A DNA stretch of 64,000 nucleotides, from contig JAJDTU010000013.1 of the NCBI GenBank assembly GCA_022826965.1, forward strand, positions 372,001 to 436,000, given 5' to 3'. Position numbers and translations under genes: made by a program. This document shows, piece by piece, positions 1-12,794 of the stretch. The DNA is from Dehalococcoidia bacterium. Its GTDB lineage: Bacteria; Chloroflexota; Dehalococcoidia; Bin125. Each line of letters begins with the position of its first letter. Position 1 is the stretch's first letter. A model generated the notes under the pieces. It was not told the origin of the DNA. It saw nothing but the letters and a program-made list of their open reading frames with translations, and searched no databases.

Positions 1-833
1 CTGAGGAATCGATCCTGGACGGCGTGCCGGTCGTCGCCGTTCATGCCGGCGTGATAGAACTCGGCTGCAATTCCGCGTCCGCGCAGATCTGCGGCGGTCT
101 TCTCCGTGTTCCTGCGCGACAGACAGTAGACGATGGCCGAGCCGGCGGACAGTCGCTTCAGCCGCGCAACGAGCTGATCCACGGCCCGACGCTTGGGCAC
201 GATGCGCAATGTGAGGTTCTCGCGCATGAAGCTGGTGATGTAGGTCTGCATGCGGGGACGGTCGAGCTGGTCGATGATGTCGCGCTGGACCTGAGGCGTC
301 GCGGTCGCGGTACAGGCGACAGTGGGGACATCGACAAAGCCCTCGGTCAAGCGTCTCAGCACGCGGTAGTCGGGACGAAACTCATGTCCCCATTCGGAGA
401 TGCAGTGCGCTTCGTCGATCGCGATCAGGCTGGGGTTGCGCCGCTCGAGGAGGTCGCGGAAGCGGTCGGTGTTGACCCGCTCAGGCGCGACGTAGAGCAG
501 CTTGACCGAGCCGTCGGCGACCAATCGCTCGACCTGCGACATCTCCATCGGCGACAGCGTGCTGTTCAGGTATTGCGCGTTCGCGCCGGCTCGCTGCAGT
601 GCGGTGACCTGATCGTGCATCAGCGCGATCAGGGGTGAGACGACGACGGTCAGCCCATCCGAGAGGATCGCCGGGAGTTGGTAACAGAGTGATTTGCCGC
701 CGCCGGTCGGCATCAGGACGAGCGCGTCGCCGCCCGCCATGACGTGCTCAATGGTCTCCCGTTGCTGGGGCCGGAAGGAGTCATATCCGTAGGATTCTTT
801 GAGTTCGCCGAGGAGACGATCGGACTCACTCAC
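1..833 (-). CDS. recQ: ATP-dependent DNA helicase RecQ, N-terminal part (cut by window edge)
   Basis: This is a superfamily 2 DNA helicase that unwinds recombination and repair intermediates. The reverse strand reads open from a GTG at 833 to the left edge, about 277 codons. Walker A MPTGGGKS lies at residues 41-48. Motif II is the RecQ form DEAH followed by CISEWGH, at about 140-150, and FRPDYR follows directly. Motif Ia (VVSPLIALMHDQ) and the start of the second RecA domain (AIVYCLSRR, EFYHAGM) are also visible. The zinc-binding and HRDC regions would lie beyond the window. No ATG fits the conserved N-terminus, so the GTG is the likely start, although its ribosome site is weak. It lies 72 bp downstream of the selenoprotein pair on the same strand. 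Confidence 0.93.
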   Translation of the reverse strand, partial: MSESDRLLGELKESYGYDSFRPQQRETIEHVMAGGDALVLMPTGGGKSLCYQLPAILSDGLTVVVSPLIALMHDQVTALQRAGANAQYLNSTLSPMEMSQVERLVADGSVKLLYVAPERVNTDRFRDLLERRNPSLIAIDEAHCISEWGHEFRPDYRVLRRLTEGFVDVPTVACTATATPQVQRDIIDQLDRPRMQTYITSFMRENLTLRIVPKRRAVDQLVARLKRLSAGSAIVYCLSRRNTEKTAADLRGRGIAAEFYHAGMNGDDRHAVQDRFL

Positions 834-905: not shown

Positions 906-2234
906 CTATGCGTCTTCGCCGGCGAGGTAGGCGCGGGAGCGGATGATGAAGCTGAGCCGCTCTTCGCCCGAGGGTGTTTCTCCCCAGCTCACTCCGCCCT
1001 TCCAGAAGCCTTCGGGAATGATCAGGCCTCGGATCATCTTCAGTCTCTGCTCGTCGTCGGCGGCAATCTGGTGGCCGATCTGGATGATGGCCTGTCCCAG
1101 AGCGGTCTTTTCGAAGATCCAGGAGTGCATGTCATGCTGCGAAGGCGGCTTGGTGCCCTCCTGTGAGGTGACCGCCTCCTGGTAGAAGGCGCGCAGGTCC
1201 TCGACGACGAATCGGACCAGCATCGGGAAGGTATGGTTCCAGTTCGGCCCTTGCGCCGACGCGGGAATCTCCTTGAAGCCGGAGCCTTCGGCGATGGCGA
1301 CGATGAACGACACCACCTTGTCGATTTCCTCCGGTTTTGCCCCGCTGATCCCGACCGTGGTGCGACCGCGCCGTCGGCGCGCCTCCTCGTACCACGGAGT
1401 CAGCAGGTCGACCTCGGATCGGAGCGCGGCTTCGAGGTCGCTGACTTCGGGTTCGGGCAACTGAATCGAGCAGGACCACACTCCGTCGCCGCCACCGTCG
1501 GGTGCGTCGTGCGGGTAGTCCTCGATCGTCGGCTCGGTCGCCGTCTCCAGCAGGCGCAGGGCGCTGTGCAGGACGTCGCGTTGGAAATCGGGGTCGTCGG
1601 CGACGCCGAACGGTCGGCCGAGGGGGAACGGCACCCAGAGCGCACGCGGCTGCCGCGTGTACTCGGTGTGTTCACGAATGAGGCTGATGGTCGTGGTGGA
1701 GATGCCGTTGCGCTGGAGGTAATGCGAGATCACACCGACGGTGGATGTGCAGGCCGGTCAAACGGGGGCCAGCATGGCGGCATCGACGCCCAGTTCCCGC
1801 ATCCGGTTCGCCATATCCGCAGCCGACGCCTCGAAGGTCTTGGCATTCGGGCTCGCGCCCTGTACCGAGAAGTGCATGGCAGAGACGCCGCCGATTTCGC
1901 CCGCCTCGTGGAGTTCGTGGAGGCGATCGATCGGCAGCACCACATTCATGTCGCGCTGGTAATGGGTGCGGTCGAAGTTGACGCTGACCTGTGATTGGAC
2001 CAAGTCGTCCGGATTGATGTCGTCGGGAATCAGCCGGTAGCCGGAGTCTCCGAAGCGGAAGGGGACGTCGTCACGGCGATGCAAGGCCGCGGAGGTGACG
2101 AGGCAGATCGTCGACTCGGCCAGTGGCGGAGGGTCAATCCATGGCGTCGCCTCGTGGTCGATGTCGCCGAAGCGAGGGGCGGCGGCGAGCATGCCCGCGG
2201 CTTCCTCTGGGTGCAGATCACTGAGTCGGACCAT
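906..2234 (-). CDS. GrdB/PrdB-family selenoprotein, copy 1 (in-frame TGA read as Sec159)
   Basis: This resembles the glycine/sarcosine/betaine reductase selenoprotein B family, whose members use a Sec-x-x-Cys redox pair in reductive cleavage. The frame opens at ATG 2234 (ribosome site GGAGAAG). It runs 158 codons to a TGA at 1758-1760, then continues in the same frame for 283 more codons to 906. Read through, the site is APV-Sec-PAC, which matches the family UxxC. Before it lie family features such as SVNFDRTHYQRD and the MHFS segment. After it lie the GVISHYLQRNGI segment and the proline-rich VPFPLGRP. The two halves are not separate genes: the second has no independent start and the homology is continuous. 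TGA ends other genes here, so the recoding is local. The substrate is unknown. A pseudogene is the alternative, made unlikely by the identical layout of copy 2. Confidence 0.88.
1723..1751 (-). promoter_or_regulatory. SECIS-like hairpin in copy 1 mRNA
   Basis: This lies inside the coding sequence just after the TGA. Reading 5' to 3' on the minus strand: UGC, AC, AUC, CACC, loop GUC, GGUG, bulged U, GAU, CUC, GCA. AUC-CACC pairs with GGUG-GAU around the bulged U, giving 7 bp. UGC pairs with GCA outside an internal loop. The apical loop begins 18 nt after the UGA and its first base is G. Both fit what is known of bacterial SECIS elements (short loop with an early G, loop about 16-37 nt after the UGA). 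Binding by SelB is inference. Confidence 0.72.
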
Positions 2235-2289
2235 GGCTCTTCTCCACTCGTGGGGTGTTCAGGCTAGCCACTCGGCGGTAATGGTTCGC

Positions 2290-3621
2290 TCAGGCTTCCT
2301 GGCCCTGGAGATATCTGCGGCTGCGGATGAGGAACTCCCGTGGGTCTTCGCCCGGCGGCGGGCCTCCGAAGGTTGGTCCGCCCTCCCAGAAGCCTTCAGG
2401 GATGAGCAGGCCTCGGATGAAGAGCAGACGCGGATCGTCGTCGTCGGTGATCAACTGGGCAATCTGCATGATGAGGCGGCCGAGGGCGGTCTCGCGGAAG
2501 ATCCAGGCGTGCATGTCGTGTTGAGAAGGCGGGCCGGCATCGGCATCGGATGTGACCGACTCCTGGTAGAAGGCTCGGAGGTCCTCGACGACGAAGCGGA
2601 TCAACATCGGCGTCGGATGCGTCCAGTCCCGACCCGTTGCCGACGCTGGGATCTGGTCGAAGCCGCCGCCTTCCGCCACGGCGACTGCGTAGGACACCAG
2701 TTGATCGATCTGCTCGAGCTTGGCGCCGCTCATGCCGAACGTCGAGCGGCCTCGCCGACGGCGCGCCTCGAGATATCGAGGCATGAGCAGGTCGATCTCT
2801 GCGCGCAGCGACGCCTCCAGTTCGCTCACTTCGGGGGTCGGGAGTTCAATTGCGCAAGCCCAGAGACCGTCGCCGCCGCCGTCCGGCGCCTCGCGCGTGT
2901 AGTCGACGATAGTCGGCTTCGTCGCCGACTCCAGCAACCCGAGCGCGCTGCGCAGCACGTCGGTCTGGAACTCAGGGTTGTCGGCGACGCCGAGCGGACG
3001 TCCCAGCGGGAACGGCACCCAGAGCGCGCGTGGCGGATGGACCGCTTCCGACTGTTCGCGGATCAGGCTGATGCTGGTCGTTGCGATTCCGTGGCGTTGG
3101 AGGAAGTGCGAGAGCACGCCGACGGCGGCCGTGCACACCGGTCAAACGGGGATCAGTAGGGCGGTGTCAACACCGAGGTCGCGCATGCGCTGGGCCATCT
3201 CAGCGGCCGAGGGCTCGAGCAGGAACGCCTCGGTCGCGCCGAGGATGGAGAAGTGCATCGGCGACACGCCGCCGATTTCGCCGGCGTCAGCGAGTTCGTG
3301 CATTCGGTCGAGCGGGAGCACGACGTTCAGGTCGCGCTGGTAGTGGGTGCGGTCAAAGTTGACGCTGATGTGTGACTGGACCAAGTCGTTGCGGTCGATG
3401 TCGTCCGGGATTATTCGATAGCCGGAGTCGGCAAAGCGGAATGGCGGGTCGTCGCGGCGATGCAACGCCGCGGTCGTGATGAGGGCGATCTTCGACTCGG
3501 TGAGCGGCCGTGGCGTGATCCATGGCGTCGCGTCATGGTCGAACTGGCGGCGCCGCAGTTGCTCGGCGCGCTGCAGCATGTGTTCCGCTTCTTCGGGATG
3601 GAGATCGCTGAGTCGGACCAT
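2290..3621 (-). CDS. GrdB/PrdB-family selenoprotein, copy 2 (in-frame TGA read as Sec160)
   Basis: This is a tandem paralogue of the gene at 906-2234, with 443 residues when TGA 3142-3144 is read as selenocysteine. The start is ATG 3621, preceded by AGGAG. The longer open frame upstream of it overlaps clpS and the TPR gene and is an artefact. Residues 1-159 carry HISVNFDRTHYQRD and the MHFS segment. The redox site is IPV-Sec-PVC, and GVLSHFLQRHGI and VPFPLGRP follow, each matching copy 1 closely. Copies 1 and 2 are 55 bp apart and codirectional, and clpS ends 29 bp upstream, so they are probably one transcript. The Sec machinery (selA, selB, selD, selC) is not in this window. The function is known only at family level: a thiol- or Sec-dependent reductase component. 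Confidence 0.88.
3107..3135 (-). promoter_or_regulatory. SECIS-like hairpin in copy 2 mRNA
   Basis: This has the same architecture and spacing as the element at 1723-1751. Reading on the minus strand: UGC, AC, GGC, CGCC, loop GUC, GGCG, bulged U, GCU, CUC, GCA. The loop again starts 18 nt after the UGA. Against copy 1, an A-U pair becomes G-C in the upper stem. Below the bulge, U-A becomes G-C and A-U becomes G-U, so pairing is kept while sequence changes. This covariation is the best evidence here that the RNA fold is selected. Confidence 0.72.
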
Positions 3622-3650: not shown

Positions 3651-3995
3651 CTAGGGCGCTTCCTCGATCGTGGCGGAGAGAGAACCGGCGCAATGCGGGA
3701 TTCGTGGGTCGGGGCCCCAGTTGTGGATTTGATCCTGGTGACCGCGAACCGTCTCGTAGTCGGCCGTCTCGACGATGCCTCGCCCATGGCCGTCGATCAT
3801 CGAGGCGATGGCGAACGCTTTCTCTTTCGAGTAGCCGAAGACGGCGCCCAGCATCTCGATCACGTACTCGTAGGTGTGGTCGTCGGAGTCGTGCAGGAAG
3901 AGGTGAAAGCGTTTTTCCAGTTCGCTGGCGCGTTCGGCGTCGACATCGTCCTCGACAACCACATCGGGTCGCGGAACGGACGGCTGAGAGGTCAC
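3651..3995 (-). CDS. clpS: ClpS-like Clp protease adaptor
   Basis: This adaptor delivers N-degron substrates to a ClpA/ClpC-type unfoldase in the cytoplasm. The 114-residue protein has a flexible, acidic N-terminus of about 25 residues. The ClpS fold follows: FHLFLHDSDDHTYEYV (the usual NDD loop appears as HDSDDHT), then EMLGAVFGYSKEKAF and GRGIVETADYE. The C-terminus runs about 25 residues past the usual end. It overlaps the upstream TPR gene by 4 bp (ATGA), implying translational coupling, and lies 29 bp before the selenoprotein pair. A likely partner is the ClpC-type ATPase encoded at 31949-34378. The divergence of the substrate loop leaves the exact N-degron specificity open. Confidence 0.82.
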   Translation of the reverse strand: MTSQPSVPRPDVVVEDDVDAERASELEKRFHLFLHDSDDHTYEYVIEMLGAVFGYSKEKAFAIASMIDGHGRGIVETADYETVRGHQDQIHNWGPDPRIPHCAGSLSATIEEAP

Positions 3996-5422
3996 GCGGC
4001 GGCCTCGTGCAGGGCCTGCATCTCCGGGGCTTCGGGGTCGCCGTCAGCCCAGAACTCGGCCGCGCGTCGGAACGAGGCCTTGGCCTCTTCGAGCTCGCCC
4101 TTGGCCGTTTGCAACCGGCCCCAGCGGAACAGGTCGCGAGCGGTCGCGCCGCGATCGAGGCGCTCGGTGAGCAGCTCCGCCGCTTCCTCCGTCTGGCCGG
4201 CTCGAAGCCGAGCCTCGACCAGCGTCTCTTCAAAGACGTCACGCTGGGCGTTGGAGCCGCCCAACGTGACCAGCAGTTCGCGGACATCGGAAAGGCCCGA
4301 GGCGGCCGCCCCGTAGTCGCCCTGGGCAAACGCCGAGAGCGCCTCGACCACCGGCGCGACCACAGAGGCGGCGGTGGTGTGTCCGCGATCCGCTGCTGCC
4401 TGCAATCCGTCCAGCAGCTTGCCCAGGCCAATCCCGTCGCCCAGGGCGGCCAGAGCCATCGCGCGGTGAACGTCGACCCACGCCGTACCCGGGCGCGGGA
4501 ACGCGGACTCAGCGAGATCTGCGATCGCCTGCCAGTCGGTGTGCTCGCCACTGGCGCCAGCGACGGTGTCATGCAAGCGGCAGCGCCAGAGCAGCGACGC
4601 TCCATCGGCCACGCCGCCCAGGGCGTCGCCCTGTACGTCCGCTCCGGGTCGAATCGTGTCGTCGTGCAGGGCCAGAGCATCGGAACGTCGGCCGTTGGCG
4701 AGCAGGAAGAGCGCCTGGTGCCAGGTCAGATGACGATAGAAGCCGGCGCGCTCGGGGAACTCGGTCAGCCATTCTCCAAGGAAGTCGGCGCCGCCGGTCA
4801 GGTTGTGCTCCTCGAAGAACACGTGCGACATCGCGTGAGCCGCCTGTCCGTTCTGGCGACGCAGCTCGAGTGCACGTTGGACCAGCTCCCGGGCTCGTTC
4901 GAGCTCGTCCATCTCGTGGTTGGCGAACGCGTGCCAGCTGAGGAACCACCAGTCGTCGCCGTAGGCCGGTGCGAGGCTGTCGAACTTGTCCAGCATGCGC
5001 TCGCGCTTCTCGACCCCGCCTCCGTAGAAGTTGGCGCCGAACCATTGCATGAGGATCGGGGCGTCGCGCGGGGTCTCGCGCAGATGCTCATCGATCAGCG
5101 CCGGCGCCTGCGAAGCCTTGCCGCGGGCCGTCGCGCCGAGGATGGCCACGTGACGTTGTTCGCGCGGCGTCGCCCCAGCGACCAGGTCGTGCGCCTGATT
5201 GGCCAGTTCGGCCGCTCGTTTGCCGTTGCCGCGGAAGAGGTAGAAGAGTCCAAGCTGGGCGTGGGCCAGGGCGAAACCCGGATCGAGCTCGATCGCGCGT
5301 TCCAGGGCATCGTCAACGCCGAGCGTGTAGGAGAGCATTCGATCGACGCCCTCGCGGTAAGCCTCGGCTGCGTCATCTGAAGTTGTCAGGGACAGTCCCC
5401 AAGCGTCGTTGGGCAAGGTCAT
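3992..5422 (-). CDS. Tetratricopeptide-repeat protein, TTC38-like
   Basis: This is a 476-residue alpha-helical repeat protein without a signal peptide or membrane segment. TPR-like units are visible throughout, for example ALERAIELDPGFALAHAQLG near residue 40 and RARELVQRALELRRQNGQ near 190. The central part (HAMSHVFFEEHN, WHQALFLLANGR) resembles the TTC38 family, which has no settled biochemical role. The start at 5422 has GAGGA upstream. It is the first gene of the minus-strand unit that continues into clpS and the two selenoprotein genes. It faces the ADP-ribosylglycohydrolase gene across an 88-bp divergent gap that should hold both promoters; I saw no clear operator there. A scaffold role is inference. 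Confidence 0.72.
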   Translation of the reverse strand: MTLPNDAWGLSLTTSDDAAEAYREGVDRMLSYTLGVDDALERAIELDPGFALAHAQLGLFYLFRGNGKRAAELANQAHDLVAGATPREQRHVAILGATARGKASQAPALIDEHLRETPRDAPILMQWFGANFYGGGVEKRERMLDKFDSLAPAYGDDWWFLSWHAFANHEMDELERARELVQRALELRRQNGQAAHAMSHVFFEEHNLTGGADFLGEWLTEFPERAGFYRHLTWHQALFLLANGRRSDALALHDDTIRPGADVQGDALGGVADGASLLWRCRLHDTVAGASGEHTDWQAIADLAESAFPRPGTAWVDVHRAMALAALGDGIGLGKLLDGLQAAADRGHTTAASVVAPVVEALSAFAQGDYGAAASGLSDVRELLVTLGGSNAQRDVFEETLVEARLRAGQTEEAAELLTERLDRGATARDLFRWGRLQTAKGELEEAKASFRRAAEFWADGDPEAPEMQALHEAAA

Positions 5423-6508: not shown

Positions 6509-7315
6509 TCAGACGCGGGCGGTTGCTGCGCCGTCGACGGCGATCGTTTCGCCGGTGATGAATCCGGAGTCGGCGGCCAGACCGACGACGGCCGCGCCGA
6601 CATCTTCCGGCTTGACCAGGGCCTTGGCCGGCAGCATTCGTGCGAGCTGCTGCACGGCCTCGGGATTATCGCCGAAGCCCTGTTGCCCCTCGTAGATGCC
6701 GACCTGCAGCGCATTGACGGTGATGCCGGAGCGCGCCCACTCCTGCGACAGGGCTCGCGTTAACGCCAGGACGCCGGCATGGGCGGCGGCGTAGGAGGAG
6801 GTGTTGGCCACGCCTCGGGCGGCGAGCACCGAGACGATGTTGATGATGCGCCCGTAGCCGTTGAGCTTCATTACCCGTCCGGCGGCGCTCGAGGTCATCG
6901 CCGGAGCCAACAGATTCGCGGCAAGCACGGCGTGCCAGTCATCCGGAGAGAGTTCGTCGACCGGAATCGCGACGGGCAAATCGGCCGCGTTCACGAGAAT
7001 GTCCAGACTGCCCAGCTCGGAGGTCGTGCGGGCGATCGCGGCGTCGACGCTGTTCTGGTTCGAGGCGTCGAGGGTGATCGCTGCGTTGGCGCGACCGAGT
7101 GACCAGATCTCGTTGGCGACGGAGTTCACCCTCACCACTTCTTGCGGGCCCGCTCGCAAACTGGCCACGGCCACATCGGCACCGGCCTCGGCCAACGCGA
7201 CCGCTGCGGCCCGCCCCAGCGGATCGCCTGCGCCGACGACCAGCGCCGCCTTTCCCTTGAGCAGGAACGGATCCTCAGGCTGTTCGGGATTGGGAGTCGG
7301 GACGAAGTCGGACAT
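6509..7315 (-). CDS. SDR-family protein, catalytic Lys replaced by His (pair b, second gene)
   Basis: This is a Rossmann-fold short-chain dehydrogenase/reductase homologue of 268 residues. The nucleotide motif VVGAGDPLGRA is near residue 30 and the NAG-like motif is VNAAD. The catalytic Ser is present (INIVSV). The YxxxK pair reads SYAAAH, so Tyr is kept but Lys is replaced by His. The N-terminus has a Pro-rich extension (TPNPEQPEDP). The ribosome site GGGAG precedes ATG 7315. It starts 10 bp after the stop of the SDR gene at 7326-8132 and looks like its partner. With the lysine gone it may be a structural or weakly active subunit. Its ordinary partner SDR has the full triad. The substrate is unknown. 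Confidence 0.85.
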   Translation of the reverse strand: MSDFVPTPNPEQPEDPFLLKGKAALVVGAGDPLGRAAAVALAEAGADVAVASLRAGPQEVVRVNSVANEIWSLGRANAAITLDASNQNSVDAAIARTTSELGSLDILVNAADLPVAIPVDELSPDDWHAVLAANLLAPAMTSSAAGRVMKLNGYGRIINIVSVLAARGVANTSSYAAAHAGVLALTRALSQEWARSGITVNALQVGIYEGQQGFGDNPEAVQQLARMLPAKALVKPEDVGAAVVGLAADSGFITGETIAVDGAATARV

Positions 7316-7325
7316 CGTTGCTCCC

Positions 7326-8132
7326 TCAGGTCGGCTCGGTCAGGCGCACGCGCGGGGCCCAGCCAGTCGGTCCAATCATCGCCAGTCCGCCGCCGTCCTG
7401 CGCGATCGTCTCGCCGCTGATCCCTGCCGCTGCGTCGGAGGAGAGGAAGACCGCCAGCGGTCCCATCTCCCAGGCCAGGCCAACCCTACCTATCGGGATG
7501 TAGCGACCGCCGCGCCAGCGCTCGAGCGCCTGCGGCGTATGCGGGAAGATGCCCGGCGCGATGCAGTTGGTGCGGACGCCGGCCGGGCCATAGCTGACGG
7601 CAAGGGAGCGAGTGAAGTTGACCACGCCGGCCTTGGCCGAAACGTACATCCAGTTGTCGCGCCCGCCGCGCAATCCAAAGCCGCTGGCCACGTTGATGAT
7701 CACCCCGGAGCCGCGCTCGGTCATGTGGGGCAGCACGGCGCGAGCGCAGAGCATCTGCGACGTGAGGTTCATGTCGATGCCCCAGCGCCACTGCTCGTCG
7801 GTGAGCTGTTCCAGCGGCGAGCCGTCGCCCGCCGCGCCGCCGCCGGCGTTGTTCATGAGGATGTCGACGCGACCGAAGCGGTCGATCGTCTCTGCGACCA
7901 TCGCCTCCACCGCCTCGGCATCGGTGACATCGGTGGCAATCGAGATGGCCTCACCGCCGCGTTCGGCGACCAGCTCAGCGGTCTCCTCGAGCTGGGACAA
8001 CGTCCGCGATGCACCGGCAAGCCTTGCGCCGGCGTCGGCGTACGAGAGCGCCATCGCGCGCCCCAGGCCGCGTCCGGCTCCGGTGAGCAGGACGACCTGA
8101 CCGTCGAGTCGGAATCGATCGGGCGTGGCCAT
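7326..8132 (-). CDS. SDR-family oxidoreductase with complete triad (pair b, first gene)
   Basis: This is an NAD(P)-dependent short-chain dehydrogenase/reductase of 268 residues. TGAGRGLGRA is the cofactor glycine motif, MNNAGGG the NNAG motif, NVASG carries the catalytic Ser and MYVSAK the Tyr-Lys pair. The C-terminus ends in a GGGLAMIGPTGW segment that is also found in the SDR at 9871-10698, so the two are duplicates. The open frame extends upstream into the hydratase gene, but ATG 8132 fits the family start and lies 5 bp after the hydratase stop. The context (enoyl-CoA hydratase upstream, degenerate SDR downstream) suggests oxidation or reduction of a CoA ester or ketone. The substrate is not deducible. 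Confidence 0.9.
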   Translation of the reverse strand: MATPDRFRLDGQVVLLTGAGRGLGRAMALSYADAGARLAGASRTLSQLEETAELVAERGGEAISIATDVTDAEAVEAMVAETIDRFGRVDILMNNAGGGAAGDGSPLEQLTDEQWRWGIDMNLTSQMLCARAVLPHMTERGSGVIINVASGFGLRGGRDNWMYVSAKAGVVNFTRSLAVSYGPAGVRTNCIAPGIFPHTPQALERWRGGRYIPIGRVGLAWEMGPLAVFLSSDAAAGISGETIAQDGGGLAMIGPTGWAPRVRLTEPT

Positions 8133-8137
8133 CGTGG

Positions 8138-9019
8138 CTAGGTCGCTGCAGCTTTGCGCTGCTGAGCAGCGGCCGAGCCGCGGCCGTCGCCGAAGCGATT
8201 GTCGCGCCATTCGAGCGCGGCCTTGAGTCCCTTCTCTCGCGACATCTTGCCGAACTCCTGGACCGCCGGTGCGAGGTGGGCCCGAGCGTCGTTCTCGGAG
8301 GCCAGTCGCTGGAGGGTGCGCGCGCCCATGATCTCGAGACCGAGGTTGACGATCCGTTTGTTCGCGGAAAGCAGCTCGTGGTCGATCATCGCCATCTTGT
8401 TGGCCAGCGCTTCGACCTCCTCGTCGAGCTTGTCGGCTGGTACGGCGTCGTAGACCAGCCCGCGCTGTGCCGCCTCGGCCCCGGAGATACTGTCGCCGGT
8501 CAGCAGCATGCGCTTGGCGAACTGCGGGCCGCCGTGGTAGAGCCACATGTGCGCCGGCGGGGCACCCATCGCGCGAACCGGCGGGAAGCCAATCACCGCG
8601 TCCTCGGCGGCGATGATGATGTCCGACAGCAGCACCAGGTCGGTGCCGCCGGCCAGGCAATAGCCGTGCACCTTTCCGATCACCGGCTTGTGCATGTCGA
8701 AGATCGCCATCCGCGCGCGCTGCGCCTTCTCCATGCCCCAGGTGTCGTCGTCGAACGTGACGCGTCCCCGGTAGACCTTGTCGTAGGTCTCCTGCGAGTC
8801 GCGGGTCGAGCCGGTCAGGTCGTATCCGGCTGAGAAGGCACGCCCGGCGCCGCTGAGGATGACGCAGTGAACGCCGGTGTCGTTGTCGGCTTCCCACATG
8901 GCCTGGGACAACTCGTCTTGCAGGGCAATCGAGAGCGCGTTCAGTTTCTCGGGGCGGTTCAGCGTCACGTACGCCTTGCGGTCCTCGACGCGGTACAGAA
9001 TGTTCTCAAAGTCGGTCAT
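8138..9019 (-). CDS. Enoyl-CoA hydratase/isomerase family protein
   Basis: This is a crotonase-fold enzyme acting on acyl-CoA thioesters, 293 residues. The first oxyanion-hole segment is SGAGRAFSAGYDL, near residue 60. The second is HGYCLAGGTDLVL, near 125. The position that in classical hydratases carries the second catalytic Glu reads FPPVRAMGAPP, so ordinary hydratase chemistry is doubtful. Isomerase, hydrolase or decarboxylase activity is possible. GGAGAG precedes the start. It sits between two SDR pairs in one minus-strand operon (10698 to 6509), with 60 bp to the upstream SDR pair and 5 bp to the downstream one, consistent with a short catabolic CoA-ester pathway. Confidence 0.88.
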   Translation of the reverse strand: MTDFENILYRVEDRKAYVTLNRPEKLNALSIALQDELSQAMWEADNDTGVHCVILSGAGRAFSAGYDLTGSTRDSQETYDKVYRGRVTFDDDTWGMEKAQRARMAIFDMHKPVIGKVHGYCLAGGTDLVLLSDIIIAAEDAVIGFPPVRAMGAPPAHMWLYHGGPQFAKRMLLTGDSISGAEAAQRGLVYDAVPADKLDEEVEALANKMAMIDHELLSANKRIVNLGLEIMGARTLQRLASENDARAHLAPAVQEFGKMSREKGLKAALEWRDNRFGDGRGSAAAQQRKAAAT

Positions 9020-9079
9020 GGAGACTCTCCAGATGTCGGTTTGTGGGCGCCGCCAGTCTAGCCGAGACTGCAGTCTGCC

Positions 9080-9874
9080 TCAGAGATGTTTGAGCACCCC
9101 GCCGTCGACCTGGATTGTCTGGCCGGTGATGAAGCCGCTCGCCTCGGAGGCGAGGTAGACAGCCAGGGGTGCGGCTTCGGACGGCTCGCCGAAGCGGCGC
9201 ATCGGGATGAAGCGCAACAACACGTTCTCATCGACTGCCGAGGGGCCGCGACCCGGGGTGGAATCGGTCCAGCCGACCACGATCGCGTTAACGGTCGTGC
9301 CTGTTGAGGCCAGTTCCTGGCTGAGGGCGCGCACCAGACCGATGACTCCGGATTGCGCCGCGCTGTAGATGCTGAGATTGCTCAGCCCCCTCACCGCCGT
9401 GGCGTCCAATACCGCGATCAACCGACCCGGCCGGCCTCGCAGCTCTCTGGTGGCACTGCGGAACGCAGCGTAGGTTCCCCCGAGGTTGCCCATCAGCACG
9501 CGCTGAATGTCGGCATCGAGGGTCTTGCGGATCGGCGCGGCGTGATAGAGGTTGGGCGCGACAATCGCCACGTCCACGCCGCCCAGCTCCTTGCTGATCT
9601 TGCGTGTTGCGACCTGCACGTTGGTGCCGTTGGACAGGTCGACCGCCTCGTTGGGCCCGCCGCCTGCCGCCTTCTTGAGCCGGAAGAGCGAGGTGCCGTC
9701 CGTGTTCGCGCTGGTCACGCCGACAGACGCACCGGCCTCGCGCAGGGCCTCGACGATGGACGTCGCGACCGGCTTCTCAGCGCCGTAGACGATCGCCCGC
9801 CGGCCGGCGAGGTCGAAGCCCTGGAGCCGGCCTTCACTCACTTGCGGCGGGGTAACCGGATTCTGCAGGCTCAT
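9080..9874 (-). CDS. Degenerate SDR-family protein (pair a, second gene)
   Basis: This is an SDR-fold protein of 264 residues with an N-terminal extension of about 20 residues like the pair-b counterpart at 6509-7315. The catalytic Ser position is Asp (AVLDAT), the YxxxK site reads IYSAAQ (Lys to Gln), and the cofactor glycine motif is eroded to VYGAEKPVA. The fold is kept, including the C-terminal SEASGFITGQTIQVDGG segment. It overlaps the SDR at 9871-10698 by 4 bp (ATGA), so the two are translationally coupled. By analogy with heteromeric SDRs such as BbsC/BbsD of anaerobic toluene metabolism, it may be a non-catalytic subunit. That role is inferred. Confidence 0.85.
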   Translation of the reverse strand: MSLQNPVTPPQVSEGRLQGFDLAGRRAIVYGAEKPVATSIVEALREAGASVGVTSANTDGTSLFRLKKAAGGGPNEAVDLSNGTNVQVATRKISKELGGVDVAIVAPNLYHAAPIRKTLDADIQRVLMGNLGGTYAAFRSATRELRGRPGRLIAVLDATAVRGLSNLSIYSAAQSGVIGLVRALSQELASTGTTVNAIVVGWTDSTPGRGPSAVDENVLLRFIPMRRFGEPSEAAPLAVYLASEASGFITGQTIQVDGGVLKHL

Positions 9875-10698
9875 GTCGGAACGCCGCCAATCCCGGATTG
9901 CACATCCCAGCCGGTTGGCGCGAGCCCGCCGGCCAGTCCACCACCGTCGATGATGAATACCTCGCCGGTCATGTAGGCGGAGGCCTCGGATGCCAGGTAG
10001 ACGGCCAGCGGTCCGAGCTCCCAGGCTTCTCCCACTCGCCCGACCGGGATTCTCGATCCCCGGTTGCGTGCGACCTCGATCTCTTCGGCGTCCTCGAGCG
10101 TCTGCTGTGCGATGAAGCCCGGGACGATGCAGTTCGCTCGGATCTGGTCCTTCGCCAGTTGAATGGCGAGTGACTGTGTCATGTTGATCACGCCCGCCTT
10201 GGCCGCGCCGTCGACGAAGAAGAGCGGACCGCTGCCGCGCAACGACGTTCCAGATGAGACCGTGATGATGTTGCCTGGCTTGCCTTCGGCCAGGAAGTGC
10301 CGAACAGCCGCGCGTGCGCTGTAGAAGACGCTGGAGAAGTTGATATCGACCGTTTCGCGCCAGTCTTCGTCGGTGATCTCGGTGACGTGCTTCATCGAGG
10401 CCGGACCGCTCGCGCCGGCGTTGGCGAGCATCACCTCAAAGCCTCCCCATTCGTCGATTGTTTGCTGGACCATCGCGTCGACTTGCGCCGAGTCGCTCAC
10501 ATCGGTCGGAATGACCAATGTTCGGCGGCCCCTGGCCTCGATTTCCGCGGCGACCGCGGCGATCTGCGACCGGGTACGGGCGGCGCAGACGATATCGGCG
10601 CCGGCGTCGGCCAGATGCAATGCCATCTGGCGGCCGAGGCCGCGCCCGGCTCCGGTGACGATTACCCGCTTGCCGTCCATGCGCAGCGATTCCAGCAT
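9871..10698 (-). CDS. SDR-family protein, catalytic Tyr missing (pair a, first gene)
   Basis: This is an SDR of 275 residues and the first gene of the operon running down to 6509. The cofactor motif TGAGRGLGRQ and the LANAGAS motif are intact, and the Ser segment is TVSSGTS. The YxxxK site reads VDGAAKAGV, so Lys is present but Asp stands where Tyr should be, next to a one-residue insertion. The C-terminal GGGLAGGLAPTGW segment is shared with the SDR at 7326-8132, marking them as paralogues. Its partner at 9080-9874 also lacks key residues, so pair a has no complete triad in either chain. It diverges from the ABM gene across 123 bp. Confidence 0.85.
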   Translation of the reverse strand: MLESLRMDGKRVIVTGAGRGLGRQMALHLADAGADIVCAARTRSQIAAVAAEIEARGRRTLVIPTDVSDSAQVDAMVQQTIDEWGGFEVMLANAGASGPASMKHVTEITDEDWRETVDINFSSVFYSARAAVRHFLAEGKPGNIITVSSGTSLRGSGPLFFVDGAAKAGVINMTQSLAIQLAKDQIRANCIVPGFIAQQTLEDAEEIEVARNRGSRIPVGRVGEAWELGPLAVYLASEASAYMTGEVFIIDGGGLAGGLAPTGWDVQSGIGGVPT

Positions 10699-10821
10699 GC
10701 CGGCAGTCTACGTCGTGTCCGTACCAGTACAGGATGGGGCGAGCGCTAACATGTTGCCCGTAAACATCCACATCGGATGCGGTGTACGCCGCATCGTGCA
10801 ACGACCTGAATGGAGTTGGAT

Positions 10822-11112
10822 ATGGCAATCGGTTTGACCGTGGAATTCACCATCGGCGAGGGCCAGAACGACGCGTTCGAAGCGTTCATGGCCGGAGCGA
10901 CGGCCAAGGTCAAGGCGGAAGACTCGGGCTGCAACAACTACGACCTGTTTCGCTCGGTCGACGACGACACGAAGTACATCCTCTTCGAGAACTGGGCGAC
11001 GGAGGAAGATCTGACCGCCCACGGCACGTCCGAAGCGATGGCCGGCATGGCCGGAATCCGCGAGTTCACAACCGCGCGTCCGGTCCTGCACCGCTACGAC
11101 GTGCCTGACTAG
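10822..11112 (+). CDS. Antibiotic biosynthesis monooxygenase (ABM) domain protein
   Basis: This is a small ferredoxin-like alpha/beta-barrel protein of 96 residues, of the ABM/YgiN type. These proteins usually act as dimeric cofactor-free monooxygenases on quinols or aromatic compounds. It begins with a beta strand (GLTVEFTIGEGQND), has CNNYDLFRS in the middle and the typical FENWATEEDLTAH near residue 65. An upstream in-frame ATG at 10810 exists, but GGAG at 10812-10815 is well placed for ATG 10822. It is followed after 38 bp by the ThDP enzyme gene and probably cotranscribed with it. The substrate is unknown. Confidence 0.82.
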   Translation: MAIGLTVEFTIGEGQNDAFEAFMAGATAKVKAEDSGCNNYDLFRSVDDDTKYILFENWATEEDLTAHGTSEAMAGMAGIREFTTARPVLHRYDVPD

Positions 11113-11150
11113 AGCTGACTCCCCACTGCGGAGATTGAGAGGACACCAAC

Positions 11151-12794
11151 ATGCCAGACCAGATGGGTTCTGAGCTCCTGGCCCGACAGATGGTCAATGA
11201 GGGGGTCGAGGACCTCTTCTACATCATGGGCGGGCCAATCATCGAGGCCGCCGGTTTCGCTGCCGAGCACGGCATCCGCACGATCGACTGCCGGCACGAA
11301 CAGGGCGCAGCCATGGCGGCCCACGGCTACGCGCGCGTCAAGCGCCTGCCCGGTGTGTGCATGGCCGCCTCGGGACCGGCCACGACCAACCTGCTGACCG
11401 GTGTCGCCAACGCCTATCTCGACGGCGTGCCGATGGTCGCCCTTGGCGGCGCGGCGGCATTCTCGTCGTTCGAGCGCGACGACTTCCAGGAGTACGACCA
11501 GCTCGCGATGGCGGTGCCGGTCACTCGCTGGGCCAGCCGCGTGACGCACTCGGCGCGGATGCCGGAGTTCTTCAATCTCGCCTACCGCGAGGCACAGGGA
11601 CCGAAGCCCGGACCGACCTACCTCGACCTGCCCGGCGACACGCTCTACCAGCAATCGGATGACGATACCGTCTGGTTCCCCGACGCCGCTGCCGCGCGCT
11701 CGCGTCCCGGCGCCGACCCCGACCAGGTCAAGGAAGCGATCGAGCTGCTGTCCAATGCCCAGCGCCCGATCATCCTGACCGGCACCGGCATCTTCTGGTC
11801 AGACGCCTCGGCCGAGCTGCGCGAGTTCGTCGAGACGTCAGGCATTCCCTTCTACACCACTCCGCAGGGTCGCGGCGTCGTCCCCGAGGACCACGACCTC
11901 TGCTTCATCGCTGCGCGCTCCAAGGCCTTCCGCGAGGCGGACGTCGCGCTCGTCGTGGGCACGAGGCTGAACTTCGTCGTCGGATCCGGCCTGCCGCCGC
12001 GCTGGGCGCCCGACCTCAAGGTGATCCACGTCGATACCGACCCCACGGAGATTGGCCACAACAAGGAAGCGACCGTCGGCATGGTCGCCGACGCCAAGCG
12101 CGCACTGGTGGCGCTGACCGCCGCCGCGAAAGAAGCCGGCCTCAACGGTCCGACCGACTGGGTCGCCGACCTGCGCGAATCCGACGACAACCGCCGCCAA
12201 CAATCGTTGGAGCAGGCCCACTCCTCGACCGTGCCCATTCACCCGTTGCGCCTGGCCGACGAGGTCGTGCAGCGCATGGACCGCGACGCGGTCGTCTGCG
12301 TGGACGGCAACGCGACCCTGGCCTTCGCGCGGCAGTACATCCCGTCCTACGCCGAGGGCGGTCGGCTCAATCCCGGCCCCAACGGCTGCATGGGCGTTGG
12401 CCTGCCCTACGTGCTCGGCGCCAAGGCCGCCGCGCCCGAGCGACAGGTGATCGGATTCGTCGGCGACGGCTCGTTCCTGATGAATGTCCAGGAGATCGAC
12501 ACGATGGTCCGGCACAACCTGCCGGGCACGATCGTGATCTCCAACAACGCCGGCTGGACCGCGGGCACGAACGACACGCCGGGCCGACCGCTCGGCTACG
12601 GCCAGCGCTACGAAGACATTGCTGTCGCCCTCGGCGGCCACGGCGAGCACGTGACCAAGCCCGAGGAGATCGGCCCCGCGATTGAGCGGGCGATGGAGTC
12701 CGGCCTCCCTGCCGTCGTCAACGTCGAGGTCGAGCAGCACGCCATGCCGGGTCAGGCCCGCTTCGGCGGATACTCGGCGACGCTGAGCCGCTAG
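11151..12794 (+). CDS. Thiamine diphosphate-dependent enzyme, acetolactate synthase/2-hydroxyacyl-CoA lyase type
   Basis: This 547-residue protein has the three-domain layout of the ThDP decarboxylase/ligase family. The N-terminal PYR domain carries the catalytic Glu in RHEQGAAMAAHGYAR (about residue 49). The central domain resembles the acetolactate synthase FAD/ADP-binding region. The C-terminal PP domain has VGDGSFLMN then ISNNAGW, the GDG-NN thiamine motif. GAGAGG lies before ATG 11151. Family members include acetolactate synthase, oxalyl-CoA decarboxylase and 2-hydroxyacyl-CoA lyase. No small regulatory subunit gene is nearby, which argues against branched-chain amino-acid synthesis. The CoA-ester genes across the divergent gap favour a lyase or decarboxylase, by inference. 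Confidence 0.85.
   Translation: MPDQMGSELLARQMVNEGVEDLFYIMGGPIIEAAGFAAEHGIRTIDCRHEQGAAMAAHGYARVKRLPGVCMAASGPATTNLLTGVANAYLDGVPMVALGGAAAFSSFERDDFQEYDQLAMAVPVTRWASRVTHSARMPEFFNLAYREAQGPKPGPTYLDLPGDTLYQQSDDDTVWFPDAAAARSRPGADPDQVKEAIELLSNAQRPIILTGTGIFWSDASAELREFVETSGIPFYTTPQGRGVVPEDHDLCFIAARSKAFREADVALVVGTRLNFVVGSGLPPRWAPDLKVIHVDTDPTEIGHNKEATVGMVADAKRALVALTAAAKEAGLNGPTDWVADLRESDDNRRQQSLEQAHSSTVPIHPLRLADEVVQRMDRDAVVCVDGNATLAFARQYIPSYAEGGRLNPGPNGCMGVGLPYVLGAKAAAPERQVIGFVGDGSFLMNVQEIDTMVRHNLPGTIVISNNAGWTAGTNDTPGRPLGYGQRYEDIAVALGGHGEHVTKPEEIGPAIERAMESGLPAVVNVEVEQHAMPGQARFGGYSATLSR

Follow-up and report, generated by a model that had tools for sequence, protein, structure and literature searches.

Tandem predicted selenoproteins of a two-domain PrdB/GrdB-related subfamily in a Dehalococcoidia bacterium

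Two adjacent genes on the reverse strand of a 64,000-nt stretch of the Dehalococcoidia bacterium contig JAJDTU010000013.1 (the window) each contain an in-frame TGA and are likely to encode selenocysteine (Sec)-containing oxidoreductases related to PrdB and GrdB. They would form a tandem pair within a two-domain subfamily in which the UGA is read by SelB with a SECIS hairpin and the protein probably acts alone. Gene A (positions 906 to 2234, reverse strand; ATG at 2234, TAG stop) encodes a PrdB-like product of 442 amino acids with Sec159 in a UPAC motif, and gene B (2290 to 3621, reverse strand; ATG at 3621) encodes a PrdB-like product of 443 amino acids with Sec160 in UPVC. The UGA codons, located at 1758 to 1760 and 3142 to 3144 (both reverse strand), respectively, were kept in all close relatives and lie within the contexts APV-U-PACT and IPV-U-PVCT. 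The two read-through products shared 68% identity across their whole length, and a GGAG-type ribosome site was identified 5′ of each ATG. These features agree with the preliminary description of the region, which had read four split reading frames as two single selenoprotein genes. It had also argued that TGA is not a reassigned sense codon in this organism, and this was borne out, as gene B itself ends with an ordinary TGA stop (2290 to 2292, reverse strand), an internal control against global reassignment, and TGA terminates 20 of the 39 long open reading frames (ORFs) of the window. A consensus scan found no promoter or terminator, and an Rfam scan of the window returned no match.

The genome (3.0 Mb, 97% complete) was searched for the machinery of Sec incorporation, as had been proposed for checking the selenoprotein reading, and all parts sought were found: selA (523 bits), selB (above cut-off), selD (352 bits), and a tRNA-Sec with a TCA anticodon (UCA in the RNA). 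The selD gene (L013, G000:C12:264989-265930) has one in-frame TGA of its own and probably encodes a Sec-containing selenophosphate synthetase. Relatives of genes A and B were collected by scanning approximately 85,000 genomes with search patterns that did not include the Sec-site residue, which gave 484 relatives. The best 80 stretches of these corresponded to 79 loci, spread across Chloroflexota, Acidimicrobiia, Pseudomonadota, and one Bacillota metagenome-assembled genome (MAG). Within a sample of Chloroflexota, family members were present in 73 of 301 genomes. Among close relatives and the genome's own copies, TGA occupied the Sec codon in all 90 site sequences and Cys in none. The distant, shorter homologues that were inspected carried Sec or Cys at this site and nothing else (Cys in L124, L127, L137, and L138), as would be expected if the TGA encodes Sec; no other sense codon was seen among them.

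For gene A, dN/dS against the nearest orthologue, in L032, was 0.049 before the UGA and 0.083 after it; gene B gave 0.074 and 0.072, respectively. Purifying selection is similarly strong on both sides of the UGA. The preliminary description had held that two independent copies exclude a chance stop. The exclusion itself stands, given the TGA at 90 of 90 sites, the dN/dS values, and the wider family, but the independence does not; genes A and B are paralogues that arose by duplication and cannot count as mutually independent evidence, which comes instead from the wider family. On these sequence grounds, insertion of Sec in vivo at the UGA of both genes is predicted with very high confidence.

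Putative bacterial SECIS hairpins were located at positions 1730 to 1746 in gene A and 3114 to 3130 in gene B (both reverse strand). The codons 3′ of the UGA align without gaps, and the RNA was compared in register across 81 distinct sequences, with the U of the UGA numbered 0. Positions 14 to 19 pair with positions 25 to 30 and close a five-base loop in which GU is invariant across the 81 sequences; in gene A, this corresponds to 6 bp and a 5-nt loop with GU. A seven-pair stem tested on the alignment had a mean pairing of 84%, compared with a shuffle maximum of 78% and with 37 to 56% in slid registers. Compensatory changes were identified at pair 15-29 (GC in 28 sequences, CG in 25, and TA in 8) and at pair 18-26 (GC in 58 and AT in 14). 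In single-sequence folding, the weaker line of evidence, 3.6% of the synonymous shuffles of gene B reached the stability of the native sequence, whereas the energy of the gene A hairpin was not below that of its synonymous shuffles. The prediction thus draws on family covariation for gene A and on both covariation and synonymous-shuffle energy for gene B, and the covarying hairpin just 3′ of the UGA is, as judged from the alignment, of SECIS type.

The best family match of both products was TIGR04483 (PrdB), with scores of 99.1 and 100 bits against an equivalog cut-off of 300 bits; a genuine PrdB, used as a control, scored 377.6 bits on the same profile. Scores on PF07355 (GRDB) were 32.5 and 28.9 bits and passed the gathering threshold of 22, and the GrdB equivalog, for which 602 bits are needed, gave 41.5 and 33.7 bits over only the C-terminal part of the profile. 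Similarity to PrdB and to the C-terminal half of GrdB was confined to the N-terminal 235 residues of the products. Two comparators were used for profile alignment, namely a genuine PrdB encoded beside PrdA and PrdC (L150:4723-5460) and a genuine GrdB-type protein (L147:4876-6204) from a locus where a GrdA-like gene and a match to PF09338 also occur. Using hhalign, Sec aligned on Sec with both PrdB (E value, 1.4e−31) and GrdB (E value, 8.6e−11). The UGA therefore falls where this one genuine GrdB and this one genuine PrdB have Sec, as had been proposed.

PrdB (TIGR04483, the L150 example) shares a homologous α/β domain with the products of genes A and B and carries Sec at the same position. However, genuine PrdB has approximately 240 amino acids, a UGTC motif, no C-terminal domain, and PrdA and PrdC encoded adjacently, whereas the products here have approximately 440 amino acids and UPxC, and no PrdA was found in the genome. 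GrdB/F/H (TIGR01917/01918 and PF07355), the protein B of glycine, sarcosine, and betaine reductases, is homologous to them through its C-terminal half. It has its extra domain at the N terminus and works with GrdE and GrdA, whereas the extra domain of the gene A and B products is at the C terminus. In the phylogenetic tree, the two-domain long forms were united in a single clade (100/98 support); genuine PrdB lay outside it and grouped with the short forms. Some of the short Chloroflexota homologues (L129, L130, L131, L135, L140, and L141) carry UGLC rather than UPxC, which is nearer to the UGTC of genuine PrdB. In L128, at approximately residue 125 of the match, the motif reads UPHIC with one extra residue, which may reflect a variant with an insertion or a misassembly.

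The C-terminal helical domain, which in gene B spans positions 2293 to 2919 (reverse strand; approximately residues 235 to 443), is found in neither genuine PrdB nor genuine GrdB and is not shared by the short forms. It has no Pfam match; even at an E value of 10, the search of Pfam returned one chance match only. An AlphaFold2 model (pLDDT, 88.9; pTM, 0.87) predicted an α/β domain with Sec at a strand-to-helix turn, together with a helical domain at residues 267 to 440. Foldseek searches against the PDB and viral models gave no match with an E value of ≤0.001, and a search for solved structures by sequence found nothing relevant. Across 42 sequences, the residues S86, N88, F89, D90, R91, D97, N99, H123, C163, R188, and R208 were invariant in the Sec domain, as were C256, E275, G296, D347, E354, and T378 in the C-terminal part. 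Judged by alignment, tree, and model, these proteins constitute a distinct two-domain subfamily, in which a PrdB-type α/β domain with Sec-Pro-x-Cys is joined to a conserved helical C-terminal domain.

Profile searches of the whole genome identified neither PF09338 (GrdE and PrdA type) nor PrdA. PF09338 was above cut-off in none of 20 family genomes and PrdA was found in none of 15; positive controls in Clostridia reached 679 bits for PF09338 and 842 bits for PrdA (G379). The best match to GrdA (PF04723) in the genome scored 17 bits, below the cut-off of 22, and was rejected as a chance match. With a completeness of 97%, PrdA is very likely but not certainly missing from the genome, and the doubt that stems from completeness is eased because PrdA is also absent from the relatives searched. 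As the PrdB and GrdB scores lie below their equivalog cut-offs and PrdA and GrdE are absent, the predicted products fall outside the definitions of both proline reductase and glycine reductase. The earlier suggestion of a system outside classical glycine reduction is supported by this, GrdE (PF09338) being absent and GrdA present only as the sub-threshold match.

In the explanation proposed here, SelB with Sec-tRNA would read the internal UGA, aided by the SECIS hairpin just downstream. The selenol of UPxC may attack or reduce a small substrate, the Cys three residues on would resolve the resulting selenenyl-sulfide, and a general thiol system could re-reduce the Cys/selenol pair, while the helical C-terminal domain may help shape the substrate pocket. 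As the genome encodes no pyruvoyl subunit of the PrdA/GrdE type, the protein probably acts on its own, and neither D-proline nor glycine is likely to be its substrate. A stand-alone, non-proline reductase is the assignment toward which the sequence evidence leans slightly. More tentatively, these proteins might represent a self-contained selenoenzyme subfamily in which the new helical domain at the C terminus takes the place of the pyruvoyl subunit and which reduces some probably common marine substrate.

An alternative is that the products are stand-alone thiol/selenol redox proteins, thioredoxin- or peroxidase-like, rather than enzymes that cleave C-N-type bonds, in which case the likeness to GrdB and PrdB would reflect the shared UxxC domain only. 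Such a role would fit with UxxC being the usual thiol-redox motif (PMC1088965, Table 3), with the absence of a pyruvoyl partner, and with the occurrence of the genes in many lineages among varied neighbors. However, the invariant S-x-N-F-D-R, D97, N99, H123, R208, and other residues lie far from the Sec motif along the chain and look like a substrate pocket, and no match to a thioredoxin-like fold was obtained; a pure redox role is therefore held to be possible but rather doubtful. It is considerably less probable that the genes encode genuine D-proline reductase PrdB, with PrdA either lost from the assembly or too divergent. TIGR04483 is the best family match, and earlier metagenome papers name such proteins PrdB (PMC1088965 and PMC2398784), but the scores of 99 to 100 bits compare poorly with the cut-off of 300 and with the 378 bits of genuine PrdB. 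In addition, PrdA is absent both here and in 15 family genomes against 842 bits in the Clostridia control, and the genuine PrdB that was examined has UGTC, lacks the C-terminal domain, and falls with the short forms in the tree.

The internal TGA in each gene would also be seen if these were split pseudogenes or sequencing errors, with the TGA a nonsense mutation and only fragments made. This appears highly improbable, as TGA is found at the same codon at 90 of 90 relative sites, purifying selection extends 3′ of it, the Sec machinery is present, distant homologues carry Cys at the same site, and the downstream hairpin covaries. Pseudogene, frameshift, and stop-codon reassignment were accordingly rejected on the basis of TGA conservation, dN/dS, and the use of TGA as an ordinary stop. 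The reading of genes A and B as tandem Sec oxidoreductases of a two-domain subfamily was retained.

Two further members of the family elsewhere in the genome had escaped the preliminary description. Four Sec paralogues of the family were identified in the genome: the tandem pair, a third with UPFC (L026, G000:C4:595543-596832), and a fourth with UPLC (L027, G000:C14:215734-216798), which adjoins a carboxyltransferase-like gene. The tandem pair is a duplication within one Chloroflexota group, and the presence of up to four paralogues per genome may point to several substrates or conditions. The pair was correctly placed behind clpS and a TPR gene. The clpS gene (3651 to 3995, reverse strand; PF02617, 49 bits) lies upstream of the pair and is probably cotranscribed with it; upstream of clpS is a TPR-like gene of 476 amino acids (3992 to 5422, reverse strand), whose TPR match was below the gathering cut-off. 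Downstream of the pair, a recQ-like helicase gene, named by eye (1 to 833, reverse strand), is cut by the window start and was found at 16 loci. Neighborhood clustering of the 79 loci revealed that the clpS, TPR, and recQ neighbors are common only to close Chloroflexota, where the gene order is also kept, and that, apart from scattered acyl-CoA and SDR genes, no neighbor recurs from one phylum to another. With no cross-phylum neighbor, no pathway was inferred, and the neighborhood offers no context for the substrate. A conserved antisense frame (neighborhood cluster 2) was rejected as an artefact of GC-rich coding.

Adjoining the pair, positions 6509 to 12794 of the window carry short-chain dehydrogenase, enoyl-CoA hydratase, and thiamine-diphosphate enzyme genes (named by eye), and this run is partly kept in close relatives. 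In a SAR116 genome (L091:7001-12027), genes resembling selA and selB (assigned by eye from their sequences) come directly after a family gene. A family member was also present in a MAG labelled Bordetella parapertussis (L100), a label that probably reflects an error in binning or naming. Among the nearest relatives are MAGs such as bin125 (the source of L037), from a sponge microbiome, and on this basis the host of the window is taken to be a marine, probably sponge-associated Chloroflexota bacterium.

The rarity implied by the preliminary description does not hold, since proteins of this family have been recorded as abundant marine selenoproteins since 2005 (PMC1088965 and PMC2398784). The Sargasso Sea survey of that year placed UxxC "PrdB" selenoproteins among the most abundant known families, with 42 Sec and 1 Cys sequences (PMC1088965), and so did the GOS survey of 2008, with 235 Sec and 110 Cys sequences for PrdB, listed there as pfam07355 (PMC2398784). 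As portrayed in these surveys, the "PrdB" family comprises UxxC selenoproteins that are abundant in marine bacteria, with Sec commoner than Cys, and genes A and B belong to that kind. In their accounts of PrdB, the two surveys do not set the two-domain subfamily apart or remark on the missing PrdA (PMC1088965 and PMC2398784). Relative to those accounts, the new point made here is a modest one, namely that a two-domain, PrdA-free subfamily can be set apart within a known kind of selenoprotein.

Proline reductase and glycine reductase are familiar chiefly from anaerobic Stickland metabolism, and for this reason an abundant marine "PrdB" without PrdA is a puzzle that the name has hidden. SelA and SelB are reported to be enriched in sponge symbionts, in a survey that includes bin125 (PMC5649159), and the family of genes A and B provides selenoprotein candidates for this enrichment. 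Setting the two-domain, partner-free subfamily apart makes it testable what these proteins reduce and why Sec is found at all 90 sites.
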